DNA of 64,000 bases, taken from the NCBI RefSeq assembly GCF_000504085.1, contig NC_022792.1, positions 1,206,001 through 1,270,000 on the forward strand. Direction: 5' to 3'. The stretch comes from Pseudothermotoga elfii DSM 9442 = NBRC 107921. GTDB lineage: Bacteria; Thermotogota; Thermotogae; Thermotogales; DSM-5069. A program made the position numbers and the translations under genes. The notes below the pieces were generated by a model, which saw only the letters and a program-made list of their open reading frames with translations, ran no database searches and was not told the DNA's origin. Below, piece by piece: positions 25,545-60,399 of the stretch (positions within the stretch are counted from its first letter, which is position 1; each line of letters begins with the position of its first letter).

Positions 25545-25589
25545 AATCACAACTGTCACAGTTTGTAGACAACTATCACATAAGTCACA
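25545..25589 (+). repeat. Five-iteron array upstream of AAA ATPase 1
   Basis: Five 7-bp units at 25545, 25554, 25564, 25574 and 25583 (AATCACA, TGTCACA, TGTAGAC, TATCACA, AGTCACA), spaced 9, 10, 10 and 9 bp, so all on about one face of the helix. The segment 25547-25589 recurs with only two mismatches in 43 at 26791-26833, after the gene. The array ends 11 bp before TATAAT (25601-25606), covering the -35 region of the ATPase promoter. Confidence 0.85.
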
Positions 25590-25622
25590 ATCTGTGATGT
25601 TATAATTATACCTGGTGGTCAA

Positions 25623-26786
25623 ATGAAAAAAGATGATATAAAACATATCCTGAAAGCACTTTTTGATGAACCCCTCTCCTCTAAGGATCTACTTGTTGAC
25701 AGAGAAAAAGAAATAGATTCTCTCAATATGGTGTGCTCACTCCAGCCGGCGGGAGTTTATGGTGTGTGCGGCGAAACGGGTGTTGGAAAAACAACTGTGT
25801 TGAACTTCGTTAATCCCGATGAAGGAGAAAGGATTTATCTGAAGCTCACAGAAAAAGAGAGCAAGGAGATAATAATTGCCGATATGCTTTACAAACTCGC
25901 TATGGAAGTAAAGAAAAGCAAAGCCACAGAGCTTTCGAAAATTGCAAAGCAAGTGATTGATTTCGTTGTCGAAGAAAGAAGTGAAACCAGTTCTCTTGGA
26001 GCGGCTGGAGGAGTTTTTGTGACAGGAAATTTTTCTAAAAGCACAACTCGCACAAAGAAATTCAATATTTATCAAACTTATGAATTGTTTGATGAACTCC
26101 TTGAGGCTCTATTGAAAAAATACAATAAAGTCGTTTTGCTTATAGATGAACTGGATAAAGAAAAAAAGGAAGAAGTGCTTGTAATTCTCGATTCGCTCAA
26201 AACTGTTTTTGGTAAAAACGGACTATTGGTAATACTTTCTTTGCCATTTGCGATATACAGGGAATACGTGAGAGACAGATTGAGATGGAACGAATCTGGG
26301 AATTTAGAGAATATACTGAAAGACACATTTTTTATAGAGCCACTCGATGATAAACAAATACAGCAAATGATCTCAAAAAGGTTGATAGCTTATCCAGACT
26401 ATTTCGATGGTGACGCTCTTTATGAAATAGCGAGATACAGTGATGGAAACCCAAGAGATGCCCTTTGGATTTCTCAACAGATCGTTCAGAATAATCTCGA
26501 TAACGAAAGAATAACAGGACAAATAGCAAGAGAAACTATTAAAAAGATAGTCAAAAGATATTTTGGAAGTTCCTGGGAATTAACAGATCTTCAGAAGAAG
26601 GTGCTTCGTATAGTAGCGGACCACCAGGGAAGTAGAAATGCTATAGTAAAAGAACTCGAGAAAAAAAACGTAAAAAGGCAAACCGCCTATACTTATATAA
26701 ACCGTCTGAAAGAAGATGGGCTGATAATTGAAAGAGATGAAAAATTAAGGGTTTCTGGGAAGATATTCTATTTGATCTCATCCTGA
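25623..26786 (+). CDS. Orc1/Cdc6-like AAA ATPase with C-terminal winged helix (ATPase 1)
   Basis: A 387-residue protein. Walker A is GETGVGKTT (50-58), Walker B LLIDELDKE (172-180), a sensor-1-like LVILSLPF, and a sensor-2-like GNPRDALWI (275-283) that recalls the Orc1/Cdc6 GDxR motif. The last ~70 residues look like a winged helix (QKKVLRIVADHQGSRN, then KRQTAYTYINRLKEDGLI). It is clearly paralogous to the protein at 51700-52857. It is flanked on both sides by five-iteron arrays, the likely targets of its winged helix. Exact family is not assigned; initiator, regulator or defence ATPase are all possible. Confidence 0.75.
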   Translation: MKKDDIKHILKALFDEPLSSKDLLVDREKEIDSLNMVCSLQPAGVYGVCGETGVGKTTVLNFVNPDEGERIYLKLTEKESKEIIIADMLYKLAMEVKKSKATELSKIAKQVIDFVVEERSETSSLGAAGGVFVTGNFSKSTTRTKKFNIYQTYELFDELLEALLKKYNKVVLLIDELDKEKKEEVLVILDSLKTVFGKNGLLVILSLPFAIYREYVRDRLRWNESGNLENILKDTFFIEPLDDKQIQQMISKRLIAYPDYFDGDALYEIARYSDGNPRDALWISQQIVQNNLDNERITGQIARETIKKIVKRYFGSSWELTDLQKKVLRIVADHQGSRNAIVKELEKKNVKRQTAYTYINRLKEDGLIIERDEKLRVSGKIFYLISS

Positions 26787-26788
26787 TC

Positions 26789-26833
26789 TGTCACAACTGT
26801 CACAGTTTGTAGACAACTGTCACACAAGTCACA
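26789..26833 (+). repeat. Five-iteron array downstream of AAA ATPase 1
   Basis: Units at 26789, 26798, 26808, 26818 and 26827 (TGTCACA, TGTCACA, TGTAGAC, TGTCACA, AGTCACA) with the same 9-10-10-9 spacing and orientation as the upstream array. It starts two bases after the ATPase stop and lies 45 bp before the start of the AAA/PD-(D/E)XK gene, so it may control that gene. Confidence 0.85.
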
Positions 26834-26877
26834 TTATCCTCAAGAATATCCATGACATAATAAGGTGGGGTGAAACT

Positions 26878-28470
26878 GTGAAGAAATTACCGATAGGTAT
26901 AAACGATTACAAACAGATCATAGAGGGTAATTACATATATGTAGACAAGACAAGATACCTGCATGAGATGGCAACGACAGGGATATATTATTTTCTCTCA
27001 CGACCAAGGAGATTTGGGAAGAGTTTAACGGTCAGCACATTTTATTATCTATTCACAGGACAAAAAGAACTGTTCAAAGATACATGGATATACAACAACT
27101 GGGATTGGGAGAAAGAGAGATATCCTGTTGTTGTATTGGACATGAACAAAATAGACAGTACAGATCTTGAGACATTGAGAGAGAGTATTCAGATGATGTT
27201 ATTAGATTACTCCAAGGAGTACGGTATAGAATTTCAGACCAAAACGATATCGAACAGGATACAGGAATTGATAAAAAACATTCACTTAAAGACATCAAAG
27301 CCTGTAGTTTTACTGATAGACGAATATGAGAAGCCGATATTGGATCACATAACAAACAAGGCAAAGATAGAAGAGATGAGGAATGAACTAAGGCAGTTTT
27401 ATGGGAAGATAAAGAGTCTTGGCAGTTCGCTGAGGTTTGTATTCATAACAGGCATAACCAAATTCACAAAGATGGGTGTATTCAGCGCGTTGAATAATCT
27501 CACAGATATCACTTTCAGTGAATTTTATTCGCAGATGCTTGGATATACACAACGAGAAATAGAACACTATTTCAGTGAACACATAACAAAAGTGAGCAGA
27601 GAAATGAAGATGACAGAAAAAGAATACCTTGAAACCTTGAAAAGCTATTACGATGGTTTTTCTTTTGATGGTCTTCATCATGTATACAATCCCTATGCTG
27701 TATTACTTGCGCTGTACAACAAAAAATTTGCTTCATACTGGAACGAATCTGGAGCTCCACAGTTCATTTTCGAATATTTCAAAACTCACAAAGTTACAAG
27801 AGATGATCTGGTAGGGAAAATAGTTCCTGAAAGTGATTTTACTGACAAAGAAATAGAAGATACATCACCTGGTATCTTTCTAACTCAAGCGGGATATTTA
27901 ACACTAACAAAGAGAGTATCACCAGATCCCAAGCAAGGACCGATGTACATATTGGGTATACCCAATATAGATGTAGAGGCAGGGTTAGATAAAGTATTGT
28001 TAGAAGCGAGATATGGCATGAACACAAGTGAAATAAACCAAAAGATATACATAATACGTGAATCAATGGCAAAAGAAGACGTAGAGCAATTGATGGGGGC
28101 GATACAATCAGCATTAGCAGAGATAAGTTATGATGTTATTGAAAGGATAAAACGATCAGGGAAAGAAGATAAAATAACCCAGCTTGAATCATTTTACCAG
28201 ACATATATAAAGACCTTACTTGGTGTCGCTGGGTACAAAGTGATAGAAGAACAGATAACGAATACGGGAAGGGCAGACTTAGTGGTGAAAACCAACGGTA
28301 CAGTGTACATATTCGAATTAAAAATAGACCAACCTGCGAGGAAAGCGATAGAACAGATAAGACAAAAAAGATACTATGAATCATACAGATACAAAAGATG
28401 TTATTTAGTGGGTATAAGTATCTCAAGTGAAGAAAGAAATATAAAAGAATGGAAATATGAAAGAGTCTGA
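26878..28470 (+). CDS. AAA-ATPase-like protein with PD-(D/E)XK nuclease-family C-terminus
   Basis: A 530-residue protein of the AAA-ATPase_like (DUF1703) group. The N-terminal P-loop is atypical (SRPRRFGKSLTVS), Walker B is VVLLIDEYEKPI. The C-terminal ~110 residues show a PD-(D/E)XK pattern: GRADLVVKTNG then YIFELKIDQPARKAIEQI, giving D and ExK. GTG start with AAGGTGGGG upstream. Members are abundant in Thermotogales and Bacteroidetes and their role is unsettled. A broken second copy starts at 29037. The iteron array of ATPase 1 lies directly upstream. Confidence 0.85.
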   Translation: MKKLPIGINDYKQIIEGNYIYVDKTRYLHEMATTGIYYFLSRPRRFGKSLTVSTFYYLFTGQKELFKDTWIYNNWDWEKERYPVVVLDMNKIDSTDLETLRESIQMMLLDYSKEYGIEFQTKTISNRIQELIKNIHLKTSKPVVLLIDEYEKPILDHITNKAKIEEMRNELRQFYGKIKSLGSSLRFVFITGITKFTKMGVFSALNNLTDITFSEFYSQMLGYTQREIEHYFSEHITKVSREMKMTEKEYLETLKSYYDGFSFDGLHHVYNPYAVLLALYNKKFASYWNESGAPQFIFEYFKTHKVTRDDLVGKIVPESDFTDKEIEDTSPGIFLTQAGYLTLTKRVSPDPKQGPMYILGIPNIDVEAGLDKVLLEARYGMNTSEINQKIYIIRESMAKEDVEQLMGAIQSALAEISYDVIERIKRSGKEDKITQLESFYQTYIKTLLGVAGYKVIEEQITNTGRADLVVKTNGTVYIFELKIDQPARKAIEQIRQKRYYESYRYKRCYLVGISISSEERNIKEWKYERV

Positions 28471-28533: not shown

Positions 28534-28752
28534 ATGAAACTCAAAGAGATGATTTTCATAGTAGAGGAAGATCCGGAGGGTGGATATAACGCCAGAGCTT
28601 TAGATTATAGTATTTTTACCGAATCAGACACCTTAGAAGCGCTCAAAGAGAATATAAAAGACGCTATAAATTGCCATTTTGAAAAAATTGATGACAGACC
28701 AGATATTATTCGACTCCACATTGTAAGAGAAGAAACATTTACATATGGCTAA
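28534..28752 (+). CDS. hicB: HicB-family antitoxin
   Basis: A 72-residue protein with the HicB partial RNase-H-like fold: FIVEEDPEGGYNARALD, FTESDTLEALKENIKDAIN. No added DNA-binding domain is apparent. It overlaps the HicA start by eight bases. GAAGGTGATG precedes the ATG. Confidence 0.85.
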   Translation: MKLKEMIFIVEEDPEGGYNARALDYSIFTESDTLEALKENIKDAINCHFEKIDDRPDIIRLHIVREETFTYG

Positions 28753-28987
28753 ACTTCCACGAAACCTTTCAGGTAGGGAGCTTGCCAAATTACTTAACGG
28801 GTATGGTTATGAGATCACAAGAAAGAGCGGCAGTCATCTGAGATTGTCCTCAAATATTATGGGTTATGAACATAGAATCACCATTCCAGATCATTCTTAT
28901 CTCAAAATAGGTACCTTAAATAACAACATAGCAGAATATCTGAAAATACCCAAAGAGCGTTTGATAAATGAGCTTTTTAGCAAGTGA
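28745..28987 (+). CDS. hicA: HicA-family mRNA interferase toxin
   Basis: An 80-residue dsRBD-like toxin. Motifs: LSGRELAKLLNGYGYEITRKSGSHLRL, with the catalytic histidine in GSH, then HRITIPDHSYLKIGTL. HicA toxins cleave mRNA at the ribosome and are held inactive by HicB. Here the antitoxin gene comes first, the less common order. Confidence 0.88.
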   Translation: MAKLPRNLSGRELAKLLNGYGYEITRKSGSHLRLSSNIMGYEHRITIPDHSYLKIGTLNNNIAEYLKIPKERLINELFSK

Positions 28988-29036: not shown

Positions 29037-29175
29037 GTGAAAAAACTACCAATAGTAATAAACGATTACAAACAAATCATAGAAGGTAACTACATATACA
29101 TAGACAAGATACCTACACGAGATGGCAACAGCAGGGATTTATTATTCTCCATTACAACCAGGGAGATTTGGGTAT
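29037..29175 (+). pseudogene. N-terminal remnant of a second AAA/PD-(D/E)XK gene
   Basis: After AGAGGAGGTC a GTG opens KKLPIVINDYKQIIEGNYIY, nearly the N-terminus of the 26878-28470 protein. The DNA match continues through the P-loop region but with a small deletion and frameshift around 29105, and ends near 29175. The rest to 29294 (about 120 bp) shows nothing recognisable. Confidence 0.85.
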
Positions 29176-51509: not shown

Positions 51510-51564
51510 TTCGATAAAAACGTACGATTTTATCGGATCTGTTCGATAAATACCGACGTGTTTG
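51510..51564. repeat. 55-bp duplicated segment, copy 1
   Basis: 47 of 55 bases match 54556-54610 in the same orientation. Each copy holds two direct TTCGATAAA boxes 32 bp apart; this copy also has a palindrome CGATAAAA-N8-TTTTATCG (51512-51535). It lies in the upstream region of AAA_14 copy A. In one minus-strand frame both copies read KHVGIYR...VFIE, so a shared coding relic is the alternative. Confidence 0.7.
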
Positions 51565-51593: not shown

Positions 51594-51640
51594 TGTCGAA
51601 CCTGTCCGGTGTCTGTCGAGTTTGTCGACGATGTCGAGAT
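51594..51640 (+). repeat. Five-iteron array upstream of AAA ATPase 2
   Basis: Units at 51594, 51603, 51614, 51623 and 51632 (TGTCGAA, TGTCCGG, TGTCGAG, TGTCGAC, TGTCGAG) spaced 9, 11, 9 and 9 bp. The 29 bases 51612-51640 recur identically at 52881-52909. The array ends 18 bp before TATAAT (51659-51664) of the ATPase 2 promoter. A TCACA-N6-TGTGA palindrome lies just upstream near 51574. Confidence 0.85.
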
Positions 51641-51699
51641 GTAGATAGGAATTTGTAGTATAATCTAAACAAAACAGAAAACAGAACAGGGGTGATTTT

Positions 51700-52857
51700 G
51701 TGAAACGAACAGTAGCCGATCTTTTGAGTGTTCTGGTAGACAGACCGCTCAGAGAAGGTGAATCAGAATATTTGGTGGACAGGGCCAGAGAGATAAACTA
51801 TCTGAATTCAATAGCACTTCATCAACCTTTTGGGATTGTGGGTGTTTCTGGAGAGACAGGCATTGGAAAAACTACGGTACTCAACTTTGTGAATCCAGAA
51901 GGAGTCTTCACGGTCAGGGTAAACATTTCGCTCAGAGACTCCATGGAGAGCATACTCTACGATCTTTTACATAGCCTGGCACTTTCCCTGGAGAAGGTGG
52001 AGGGAGTGTCAGATCTTGCAAAAGAGGTTAGAAAGTGGATAACAGATGAAGTTTCAACCATAAAGGGCTTTTCCCTTGGTGTTTCCTTTGGTGTGAACGC
52101 CAGCCTGACACACGAAAAGTCGATTAGGCCAAGGTTCAACTTCTTCGAAGCCAGAGAAAAACTCGGAGAACTGATAAAACAGACGGTTCAGAGAAAGGAA
52201 AAATTCCTTCTGATCATAGATGAACTGGACAAGGAGAAGAAGGAAGACGTTCTCAGGGTGATAGATTCGATAAAGAATTTCATCATCATGGAAAATTTCG
52301 TTGTTGTTCTCTCTCTTCCCTTTTCGATATACCGGGAGTACGCCGCCGACAGACTGAGATGGAACGAAGCAGGAAATCTGGAAAACATATTCACAGACAT
52401 CGTTTTTGTTGAACCTCTGAAGAAACTTGAGATCAAAGAGTTGATCATCAAAAGACTTGGATCCTACATTGAACTCATCGAAGACGAAGTGCTCGATGTA
52501 GTGGCCGATTTTTCCGATGGAAACCCAAGAGATGGTCTGTGGATACTGACAAAGGCAATCTACAACAATATTCACAAAGAAAGGTTGAGTAAAGAGGATC
52601 TAATCAACTCGATCAACAGAACGATAGCAGAGTACACCGGATTAACCCTGAGCCTGACAGAAAACCAGAAAAAGGCCATCCGAGTCCTGAGAGGTTCTGT
52701 TTACTCCAGAGAAAAGATCATAGAAACACTCCAAAAAGAAGGCTTCAAGCGAACAACGGCGTATTCAGTCATGGATCAACTCCTTCAAAAGCGAATACTC
52801 CTTGCTGAAAAAGAAGGTTACAGGATCTCTGGAAAGTTTTGGTATGTGGAGATTTGA
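51700..52857 (+). CDS. Orc1/Cdc6-like AAA ATPase with C-terminal winged helix (ATPase 2)
   Basis: A 385-residue paralogue of 25623-26786, aligned over its whole length: VDRAREINYLN, Walker A GETGIGKTTVLNFVNPEG, Walker B LLIIDELDKEKKEDVLRVID, VVLSLPFSIYREYAADRLRW, sensor-2-like GNPRDGLWIL, winged-helix end (SREKIIETLQKEGFKRTTAY). GTG start after AGGGGTG. Less AT-rich than ATPase 1, so the two have separate histories. Iteron arrays of a different sequence but the same architecture lie on both sides; a GIY-YIG gene follows the distal one. Confidence 0.75.
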   Translation: MKRTVADLLSVLVDRPLREGESEYLVDRAREINYLNSIALHQPFGIVGVSGETGIGKTTVLNFVNPEGVFTVRVNISLRDSMESILYDLLHSLALSLEKVEGVSDLAKEVRKWITDEVSTIKGFSLGVSFGVNASLTHEKSIRPRFNFFEAREKLGELIKQTVQRKEKFLLIIDELDKEKKEDVLRVIDSIKNFIIMENFVVVLSLPFSIYREYAADRLRWNEAGNLENIFTDIVFVEPLKKLEIKELIIKRLGSYIELIEDEVLDVVADFSDGNPRDGLWILTKAIYNNIHKERLSKEDLINSINRTIAEYTGLTLSLTENQKKAIRVLRGSVYSREKIIETLQKEGFKRTTAYSVMDQLLQKRILLAEKEGYRISGKFWYVEI

Positions 52858-52862
52858 CGGTT

Positions 52863-52909
52863 TGTCGAATCCGTTCAGCCTCTGTCGAGTTTGTCGACGA
52901 TGTCGAGAT
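52863..52909 (+). repeat. Five-iteron array downstream of AAA ATPase 2
   Basis: Units at 52863, 52872, 52883, 52892 and 52901 (TGTCGAA, CGTTCAG, TGTCGAG, TGTCGAC, TGTCGAG), same 9-11-9-9 spacing and orientation as the upstream array; starts eight bases after the ATPase stop codon begins. A further TGTCGAT lies at 52952. It precedes the GIY-YIG gene by about 175 bp. Confidence 0.85.
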
Positions 52910-53084
52910 AGAGTGAGATCTAGGACTTTTCGTATCTTTTTTGTATAACCCTGTCGATTATTAACGTTGTCAATCAGTGTTTTTGAAGAATGGTGTTATT
53001 TAGAAATTCAGAACAAATTGTAACATTATTTAAACATAAATCACTGAGATAATTCAAGTGAATTAACTGCAGGGGGTGAAGCGA

Positions 53085-53390
53085 ATAAAAGCAAGGGAAA
53101 TTCAAAAGAAGTGGAGTCCCTTTAAAGAAGAGAAGATTAAAGACGTACCAGATGTATTTGGTGTGTATGAACTGGCAGATGAAAATAGAGAAATTGTTTA
53201 CATTGGTCATGGAAAGCTCAAAGAGCGTCTTAGTGAGCATTTTAGAAAAAAGACCTGTCCAGGGGCAAGGTTCTTCAGGTATGAAAAAACATCTAACAAA
53301 GAGAGGGCTGAAGAGAGAGAAAAAGCCCTGCTGAAGAGATTTGAAAAGGAGAACAAAAGACTGCCAGAGTGCAACAAACGGCTTGGTTGA
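53085..53390 (+). CDS. Small GIY-YIG nuclease-like protein
   Basis: About 101 residues. GVYELADENREIVYIGHGKL carries the GIY (as GVY) and YIG motifs, followed by the conserved arginine in LKERLSEHF and a terminal ECNKRLG with the usual asparagine. The GTG at 53076 lies inside the AGGGGGTG ribosome site; an ATA at 53085 has normal spacing and is preferred, so the start is uncertain. It follows the distal iteron array of ATPase 2 and precedes a cmr1 fragment by 30 bp. Confidence 0.7.
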   Translation: MKAREIQKKWSPFKEEKIKDVPDVFGVYELADENREIVYIGHGKLKERLSEHFRKKTCPGARFFRYEKTSNKERAEEREKALLKRFEKENKRLPECNKRLG

Positions 53391-53420: not shown

Positions 53421-53597
53421 ATTCAAATTCAGGCTAAAACCCCTATATGGACAGGAAATATCGATTCAAAAAGTGATACTATTCAGCCAACCGGAATAAT
53501 GGGTTCCCTCCGATGGTGGACAGAAGATCTCCTCAGAGGTATGAATGATTTTGCGTGTGATCCCACTGGCAAAACAATATGCCCTGGTGATGAATAA
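53421..53597 (+). pseudogene. N-terminal fragment of a cmr1-like gene
   Basis: From ATT at 53421, eight bases after GGAGGGG, 58 codons read as the N-terminus of Cmr1: KTPIWTGNIDSKSD, GIMGSLRWWTEDLLRGM, FACDPTG, ending at TAA. It aligns codon for codon with the cmr1-like gene at 59149, sharing its ATT start, but at the DNA level the two are clearly diverged. The PIN module begins 12 bases further on, so the rest of the gene is gone. A relic of a second type III CRISPR locus. Confidence 0.85.
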
Positions 53598-54525: not shown

Positions 54526-54850
54526 TACGTAGAAAACTGCGCCTTCTTTGCGATGTTCGATAAAAACGCACGAATTTATCAAATTCATTCGATAAATACC
54601 GACATGTTTGTATTCACTCAGAGAATAGACGTGGAGTTCGAGGCCTTTCAACCTGATGGTCTTTTTCACTATTTTGTAGGCATCTTCTCTGATTGGGTCA
54701 TCATAAACTACAAGCAGATCGACATCGCTGAAGGCGGTGAAGTTCCCTTTGCGTATGAGCTGAAGAGCGCCACGAATCTGAGACGATCTTTTCGGCATAG
54801 TTCACCAACCTTTCGGCTTCGATTCTGGAAGATTCAGAAGGAAGGCGAGA
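54526..54850 (-). pseudogene. Decayed minimal nucleotidyltransferase (MNT-type)
   Basis: One frame holds SRIEAERLVNYAEKIVSD; a shifted frame continues LIRKGNFTAFSDVDLLVVYDD and LKGLELHVYSLSEYKHVG. The SDVDLLVV strand with RKGNFTAF before it matches the MNT signature (GSxxRGxxxxxSDxDLLV), but GS is lost and a frameshift separates the parts. It includes repeat copy 54556-54610. It runs into the antitoxin frame without a stop, a chance fusion. The 54324-54525 part is not recognised. Confidence 0.55.
54556..54610. repeat. 55-bp duplicated segment, copy 2
   Basis: Second copy of the TTCGATAAA-containing segment of 51510-51564, with the same 32-bp spacing between its two boxes. It lies inside the nucleotidyltransferase relic rather than upstream of an intact AAA_14 gene. 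Confidence 0.7.
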
Positions 54851-59148: not shown

Positions 59149-60399
59149 ATTAACTTACAAATAAAAACTCCTATCTGGACCGGTGATGTTGATTCAAAGA
59201 GTGATATTATTCGATCAACAGGTATTGTTGGATCTCTTCGCTGGTGGACAGAAACGCTCCTTAGAGGAATGTGTGAATTTGCCTGTGATCCCACCGACAA
59301 TTCAAGATGTCCTGATGGTGGGAATTATTGCTCTTCCTGCTTGATTTTTGGCGCTACGGGAAGAAGAAGATTGTTTAGAATCGAAATAAACGGAGGAGAG
59401 AAAATTTCTTTTCCAGGAAATGGAGCAATAAACATAAAACCTTCCGGTCGGTCACATGGCTGGTTTTTTGAGCCTGGTGTTGTAGGAAATTTAGAGATGA
59501 AAATGATTCCTCTCGATGAGAAATTCGATGAAGTTCTCGTATTAACACCACTGATTATCGCTTCCAACTGGGGAGGAATTGGAGCAAAAACACAACTTGG
59601 ATATGGAGTTGTTGAAATAACAAATCCTCCAAATGTCAGTTTCGAGAATTTCAAAAGAGTTCTTAGGAATCTTTCACAGAAAGGAAAACGCCAGAAATCA
59701 AATGAACCTGGTTTTCCAAACCTCAAAGATATGTTTTTTGCAAAAGTCAGATTTAAAGCAAACGGAAATTGTTGGGAGAAGATTGATGGGCTAATAGATA
59801 AATCAAGCAAAAGTAGACTTGAAAAAGAAATAAGAAAAAAAGGGATAGAGGAGTGCTTTCGTAACAATTTCTTACCCATAGCGCCTGTGATCAAAAACTG
59901 GTTGAGATATGATGATGGAAGCCAAATTTGGAAACCTAAAAATGGAACCACGAAAGGCATTGAAAATTGGTTATTTGGAACAATTCGAAATATTTGTCCA
60001 AAGTGCTATAACATTGTAAATCCGCAAAATGAAAATGGGAAGACAGTTTATGAGTGCCAAAATTGTGGTCAAAAATTCAAAAAAGAAGAAATTATCAATA
60101 AATGTGCTTCAAAAATAAATATCTCCTGTGCTTATAAAATTGGCAATGATCTTTGGGAAATCAGAATCTGGGGATGGATACCGAAAGATGCACCCCAGAA
60201 TTTTCCAAGAGAAGAATTTCTGGATAAACTCAAGAAAGTATTGCAAACTGGAATTGCTGGATTTTTGGGCAACAGTACGTCAGATCACAAACTTGCTGTG
60301 TGGCGAGAATATGCTTCAAAGAGAGATACTATTAAGGAAGAGCAAAATTTCGATAATTTCGTTGAAAGTTTGCTGAGGGGGACAGATGATGTATCATGA
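59149..60399 (+). CDS. cmr1: Cmr1-like RAMP protein, AUU start
   Basis: A 416-residue RAMP protein. The N-terminus KTPIWTGDVDSKSDIIRSTG and GSLRWWTETLLRGM is the Cmr1 pattern; cysteines in CDPTDNSRCPDGGNYCSSC and the glycine-rich GIGAKTQLGYG (about 144-154) follow. A zinc-ribbon insert is visible at about 283-306 (CPKC...CQNC), unusual for the family. The first in-frame ATG (59269) would cut away the conserved start; ATT at 59149, five bases after GGGGGTG, gives the full domain. Part of a type III crRNA effector complex. Next gene overlaps its end by 14 bases. Confidence 0.82.
   Translation: MNLQIKTPIWTGDVDSKSDIIRSTGIVGSLRWWTETLLRGMCEFACDPTDNSRCPDGGNYCSSCLIFGATGRRRLFRIEINGGEKISFPGNGAINIKPSGRSHGWFFEPGVVGNLEMKMIPLDEKFDEVLVLTPLIIASNWGGIGAKTQLGYGVVEITNPPNVSFENFKRVLRNLSQKGKRQKSNEPGFPNLKDMFFAKVRFKANGNCWEKIDGLIDKSSKSRLEKEIRKKGIEECFRNNFLPIAPVIKNWLRYDDGSQIWKPKNGTTKGIENWLFGTIRNICPKCYNIVNPQNENGKTVYECQNCGQKFKKEEIINKCASKINISCAYKIGNDLWEIRIWGWIPKDAPQNFPREEFLDKLKKVLQTGIAGFLGNSTSDHKLAVWREYASKRDTIKEEQNFDNFVESLLRGTDDVS

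Follow-up and report, generated by a model that had tools for sequence, protein, structure and literature searches.

An AAA+ ATPase gene bounded by paired, LTR-like repeat arrays in Thermotogota: a candidate one-gene mobile unit

An AAA+ ATPase gene enclosed by two short, direct arrays, probably binding sites for its own product, is found in many genomic contexts among Thermotogota, and sites exist in occupied, lone-array and array-free states. Because these three states exist, a selfish element, which the original prediction had raised as a possibility, is the best-fitting reading. More specifically, we put at about an even chance the proposal, drawn from comparison of sequences, that the ATPase and its two arrays make up an LTR-like mobile unit or cassette with a single gene, in which the ATPase would bind its own ends.

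The window analysed, a 64,000-nt stretch of the Pseudothermotoga elfii DSM 9442 genome, contains two such loci, all genes and arrays of which lie on the forward strand. At the first (W2), the gene for a 385-aa ATPase (51700–52857) lies between a left, upstream type-A array (51594–51640) and a right, downstream type-A array (52863–52909) that begins 5 nt past the stop codon, the integrated unit of gene and two arrays spanning ~1.3 kb. The arrays are 47 nt each and 87% identical, with their final 29 nt identical, and each comprises five units (TGTCGA, TGTCCG, TGTCGA, TGTCGA and TGTCGA) at steps of 9, 11, 9 and 9 nt, unit 2 being degenerate in both copies. This confirms the paired arrays, with their 29 shared bases and their spacing, that had been described from the letters of the sequence, and the claim of a second locus with another unit sequence and the same layout was borne out at 25545–26834. 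There, a 387-aa ATPase (W1, 25623–26786) is flanked by a left (25545–25590) and a right (26789–26834) type-B array of TGTCACA units, which share 95% identity over 43 nt and have a degenerate unit 3 (GTAGACA). Along their full length W1 and W2 share 40% identity, and they are the sole two such ATPases in the 2.17-Mb genome. A promoter beside the left array, also proposed earlier, is plausible at both loci: a predicted −10 hexamer, TATAAT, occurs at 51659–51664, 19 nt past the left W2 array, and another at 25601–25606 for W1, and in each case the final unit of the left array overlaps the expected −35. Chance origin of the window's arrays is excluded, because the pattern TGTCGANNNTGTCGA gave four matches against 0.12 expected and because array PWM scores (53–67) lay far above the maxima from 30 shuffled 64-kb windows (6.5 for type A, 17.5 for type B).

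In a Thermotogota sample of one genome per species, ATPase homologues were detected in about 40/103 genomes; a wider listing reaches 50 genomes, the additional ones contributing weak, partial AAA matches. None was present in 72,556 plasmids, 50,697 phages and IMG/VR viral contigs (pattern scan). Arrays lay on both sides of 33/38 intact genes, weakly so in two (L072 and L073). When the five pairless homologues were scanned for 9-11-9-9 repeats, L036, L037 and L076 gave nothing and L063 only a weak hint, whereas L058 proved to have a left array that is clear and a right one that is truncated. In most homologues a hexamer resembling TATAAT comes after the left array, which again places the final unit of that array at the expected −35. 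On the other side, the right array begins 4–35 nt past the stop codon, and in L057, L059, L064 and L066 the right copy spans a decayed copy of the promoter as well. Hairpins occurred on the right flank in 7/25 cases against 1/25 on the left, although any preference for terminators on the right is suggestive only, since a convergent neighbour supplies a terminator of its own. Lone arrays of Mesotoga-like genomes were found within larger repeats. In G059 one gene is broken near residue 68, and the two halves, each with its own array (L043 and L049), lie 54 kb apart, which suggests a chromosomal rearrangement through the ATPase gene.

W2 carries a Walker A motif (GETGIGKT), a Walker B motif (LLIIDELD), a sensor-2-like motif (DGNPRD) and a C-terminal winged helix with recognition helix KRTTAYSV; among 35 homologues, Walker A, Walker B (DELDKE) and the sensor-2-like GNPR are almost invariant. 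Pfam gave weak matches to AAA_22, KAP and ATPase_2, and winged-helix matches at the C-terminus. An AlphaFold2 model (pLDDT 83, pTM 0.79) has the architecture of Orc1/Cdc6 proteins, with an AAA+ domain, a lid and a C-terminal winged helix, and its top fold match was an archaeal Orc1/Cdc6 on origin DNA (2qby_A, E 1.3e-11; whole-chain TM 0.48–0.50, rmsd 10 Å), followed by RuvB and archaeal ATPases from P. abyssi and S. solfataricus. Scores against the Orc1/Cdc6 family model TIGR02928 were 17.0 and 16.4 bits, far short of its cut-off of 181.3, and the likeness to Orc1/Cdc6 and RuvB, as far as the model goes, is one of fold only. Estimates of dN/dS between related copies were about 0.06–0.12 (about 0.06–0.09 for W2 against Thermotoga copies), values that point to strong purifying selection on the ATPase gene.

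Protein and array appear to have diverged together, as had been anticipated. All type-B homologues, which accompany TGTCACA arrays, have a recognition helix of the form K(R/K)QTxYTY (KRQTAYTY in W1), and all type-A homologues, which accompany TGTCGA or TGTCGG arrays, have xR(T/S)TxYS, with A354S and V357T in addition in the TGTCGG subtype. The recognition helix tracks unit type in these sequences, although this is to be read as a correlation, confounded by clade and without phylogenetic independence, because array type and clade coincide. Even if the unit were immobile, the TGTCGA, TGTCGG and TGTCACA arrays and their proteins would offer a natural matched series in which to follow the evolution of winged-helix specificity.

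Arrays are much more alike within a locus than between loci. Across 16 type-A loci, one per close group, left and right arrays differed at 2.8 of 44 nt, compared with 12.2 when partners were shuffled between loci, and at the 14 non-core spacer positions they differed at 1.6 compared with 7.2; in neither case did any of 10,000 shuffles reach the observed value. The effect was weaker for type B (4.7 against 7.0 differences, reached in 5/10,000 shuffles). Spacers are not expected to stay alike through the selection exerted by a binding protein alone; judged from these patterns, sequence must have been copied from one array end to the other, by insertion or conversion. Several loci look vertically inherited (G067/G070, and hotspot 2 of genus g32), so some of this homogenisation must reflect gene conversion rather than new insertion.

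Related genomes differed in the state of particular sites. G070 and G068 are 96% syntenic: where G070 has array, ATPase and array, G068, which is without an ATPase homologue, has a lone array identical to the G070 right array, and the flanks switch at the 5′ edge of that array, at or before its first 6 nt. All three states are seen at the TrpG locus, which is occupied in G039, carries one array in G042 and is free of arrays in G041; in G041 a terminator hairpin directly follows the PDDEXK stop codon, and at that place G042 has a 99-nt insert containing one array. No target-site duplication was evident in the G041/G042 comparison, which provides the single array-free site seen. G086 and G087 are probably another pair of occupied and lone-array sites, the lone array of G087, at a short contig end, sharing the flanks of the G086 unit. 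The window's own W2 site, between AAA_14/DUF4143 and GIY-YIG/Cmr1-fragment/PIN genes, is occupied in G000, whereas G094 and G060 each hold a single decayed array there; G094 and the other Thermotoga genomes instead carry the unit next to an MNT gene, at a neighbouring site where G000 has a microhomology deletion. A palindrome copy at 54556–54610, considered as a virgin target site, was rejected when its junction proved to be a deletion between TGTTTG microhomologies, and the LarA locus was rejected as a clean empty site when G063 was found to have a different gene there. Flanks at the MNQKAF-gene site in G058/G060 were too divergent for an empty site to be read.

Arrays also bound genes other than the ATPase, and the genes so bracketed are often defence genes. 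G042 and G045 lack a convincing homologue of the ATPase but have two arrays, separated by 4.1 kb, with radical-SAM/SPASM and MFS genes and a ParE-type toxin–antitoxin pair between them; at the same locus G041 has the order array, MFS, array, ATPase, array. In G066, a genome without the ATPase, opposite-strand ATPase_2 and AAA_14/DUF4143 genes lie between two arrays, and in G081, G029 and G030 three or four serial arrays surround AAA_15/AAA_21, TOPRIM-like and toxin–antitoxin genes. Within an island all arrays share a single orientation (four in G029, four on one contig in G030, three in G081 and three in G094). One site sequence therefore bounds unrelated gene modules in G042/G045, G066, G081, G029 and G030, and the notion that arrays are plain operators of the genes they precede was rejected, since many array-bounded genes lie on the opposite strand. 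In two species of the genus, at L115 8371–8416 (G000 1276370–1276415) and at L117 7324–7369, a lone type-A array was also found upstream of a Cmr-type operon, 87 nt ahead of its opening gene in G000 and at the same place in G063; the lone array before this operon fits a regulon member or a remnant alike. Among other array neighbours, L125 15603–18784 holds, between type-B arrays, a HigB/HigA-like toxin–antitoxin pair accompanied by a small, chaperone-like third gene, together with an AAA_15 plus OLD-like TOPRIM/DUF3226 pair, and in L120 a HigB/HigA-like pair and small gene lie 611–1760 nt downstream of the type-A array.

If the unit is mobile, a mechanism can be proposed from its anatomy. The C-terminal winged helix would bind the 9-nt units, at roughly one protomer per unit, and the AAA+ domain would assemble on the array as a spiral of five or six subunits; occupancy of the −35 would render the ATPase gene autoregulated, and the assembly might pair or mark the two ends of the unit. 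Recombination between arrays would delete the ATPase and leave one array, in the manner of a solo LTR, and array-bounded neighbours would travel along as cassettes, and the array left behind might be a place where further modules land or are shuffled. The ATPase is the sole ORF between the arrays (Pfam AAA/KAP only), and no transposase, recombinase, nuclease, reverse transcriptase or integrase is encoded in the unit; the modelled Orc1/Cdc6/RuvB-like fold suggests that the ATPase may recruit host replication or recombination proteins instead of cutting DNA.

The likeness to LTR elements and solo LTRs, offered as a mechanistic analogy only, lies in terminal repeats of direct orientation that agree within one copy but differ from copy to copy, a promoter beside the left repeat, and lone repeats at sites occupied elsewhere. 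The unit differs in being bacterial, in having one gene and neither reverse transcriptase nor integrase, in repeats that are probable protein-binding arrays, and in showing no target duplication at the single array-free site. As in pdif (Xer) modules and integron cassettes, modules that often carry toxin–antitoxin or defence genes are bounded by one short site and may themselves encode no recombinase, but here the site is a direct five-unit array of ~46 nt rather than a 28-nt XerC/XerD site or attC, and one module encodes an apparently dedicated site-binding AAA+ protein; judged from its sequence, the array contains neither a recognisable attC fold, with IntI, nor an XerC/XerD 11-6-11 core. 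Orc1/Cdc6 with its origin recognition boxes, and the Rep proteins of iteron plasmids, share the AAA+ domain with C-terminal winged helix, the best fold match (2qby) and repeats beside their own gene, whereas the present unit has short 9-nt steps and arrays on both sides of the gene, scores 16–17 bits against the TIGR02928 cut-off of 181, and yielded no plasmid or phage member. Matches to the archaeal-type ATPase_2, KAP and AAA_22 P-loop ATPases are weak but real, with P. abyssi and S. solfataricus proteins among the top folds; to our knowledge, these are broad families in which paired arrays of this kind are undescribed. We know of no bacterial element that combines one AAA+ gene, LTR-like repeats of probable binding sites, lone-repeat derivatives and recombinase-free array-bounded cassettes, and no description of one was found in the open-access literature, as incompletely covered here. 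What is categorically new is the anatomy as found, as distinct from a demonstrated new mechanism of movement. It is possible, although we would lean against it, that these loci represent a new class of mobile element, in which an initiator-like AAA+ ATPase mobilises any array-bounded DNA, including defence and toxin–antitoxin cassettes, via host replication or recombination, and so helps to assemble Thermotogota defence islands. Mobility of this kind would amount to gene movement without a recombinase and would be a candidate explanation for the assembly of defence islands in thermophiles.

Ordinary RecA deletion between repeats can also yield lone arrays, and host DNA caught between two separate insertions could explain array-bounded genes; both count against the mobile reading, as do the lack of an encoded recombinase, transposase or nuclease, of an evident target-site duplication at the one array-free site and of a fresh insertion in any same-species pair, the loci that look vertically inherited, the five intact homologues without a clear pair and the lone arrays within larger repeats of Mesotoga-like genomes. 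A less probable alternative is that the ATPase is a non-mobile, autoregulated chromosomal regulator or defence ATPase, with the arrays at its promoter and 3′ side acting as operators that are bridged or silenced and are kept alike by selection and gene conversion, and with lone arrays before other operons forming its regulon. Such a regulator would suit the overlap of the left array with the −35, the lone type-A array before the Cmr-type operon in both G000 and G063, the conservation of left arrays with one another (L-L) between close species and the strong purifying selection, yet binding selection alone leaves the co-variation of spacers within a locus unexplained, several right copies carry a decayed promoter copy and abut the stop codon, arrays persist in ATPase-free genomes, and the genes that arrays bound frequently run on the opposite strand. 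It is rather improbable that the arrays are simply convenient repeats at which homologous recombination after natural transformation shuffles modules, with the ATPase one passenger among them: loss of the ATPase from between arrays does resemble direct-repeat deletion, and differing modules do occur between arrays at one locus, but repeats alone cannot reach unrelated chromosomal sites, as the arrays have, the switch point in G068 comes no later than the first 6 nt of the array and not inside it, and the arrays enclose the gene of a dedicated protein that is probably array-specific.

A nuclease-family gene does follow the distal array at each of the window's two loci, as originally noted (a 104-aa GIY-YIG/DUF7508 gene at 53076–53390 beside W2 and an AAA-ATPase_like plus PDDEXK_9 gene at 26878–28470 beside W1, both on the forward strand), but not at other loci, and neither gene is integral to its unit. 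The claimed cassette of ATPase, iterons and nuclease was not upheld: a survey of homologues found unrelated, mostly ordinary downstream genes with no common partner (secreted transglutaminase, OB-fold or SppA-like, TrpG, LarA, MNT, OsmC, MFS and ABC-F genes among others, often convergent), the random pattern that had been named beforehand as speaking against it. The gene with PDDEXK_9 also adjoins the G063 orthologue. The GIY-YIG gene follows the site-1 array in G000, G094 and G060, which is one inherited orthologous island and not independent recurrence. An anti-phage or conflict system of ATPase and downstream nuclease effector is very improbable: nucleases follow the window's two loci and defence-type genes occur between arrays elsewhere, but the genes downstream vary at random from one homologue to another, G094 and G060 carry the GIY-YIG gene in decayed form, and there is no direct evidence for the ATPase as a defence gene, no PADLOC family covering it (weak partial matches only, to wHTH or short segments).

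Other features of the window and its surroundings were recorded alongside. Positions 28534–28987 and 29037–29172 hold a HicB/HicA-like pair and then a second, truncated version of the AAA-ATPase_like/PDDEXK_9 gene that lies upstream. Decayed fragments resembling the N-terminus of Cmr1, a type III CRISPR effector, lie at 53436–53592 and 59164–59320 and are 76% identical to each other, with intact Cmr-type genes just outside the window, in L115. In L119 (G070), a 5.4-kb segment that includes an array and is cut by an IS21-like insertion is 99.4% identical to G066, the genomes being otherwise ~70% identical, which reflects either recent horizontal transfer or assembly mixing. Between the AAA_14/DUF4143 gene and the left W2 array lies a palindromic region (51510–51564; TTCGATAAAaCGTACGAnTTTATCGAA...), conserved between AAA_14/DUF4143 genes and their neighbours and repeated in Thermotoga genomes; its second copy, at 54556–54610, marks neighbouring site 2, and the two are possibly operators of the AAA_14/DUF4143 ATPase family.
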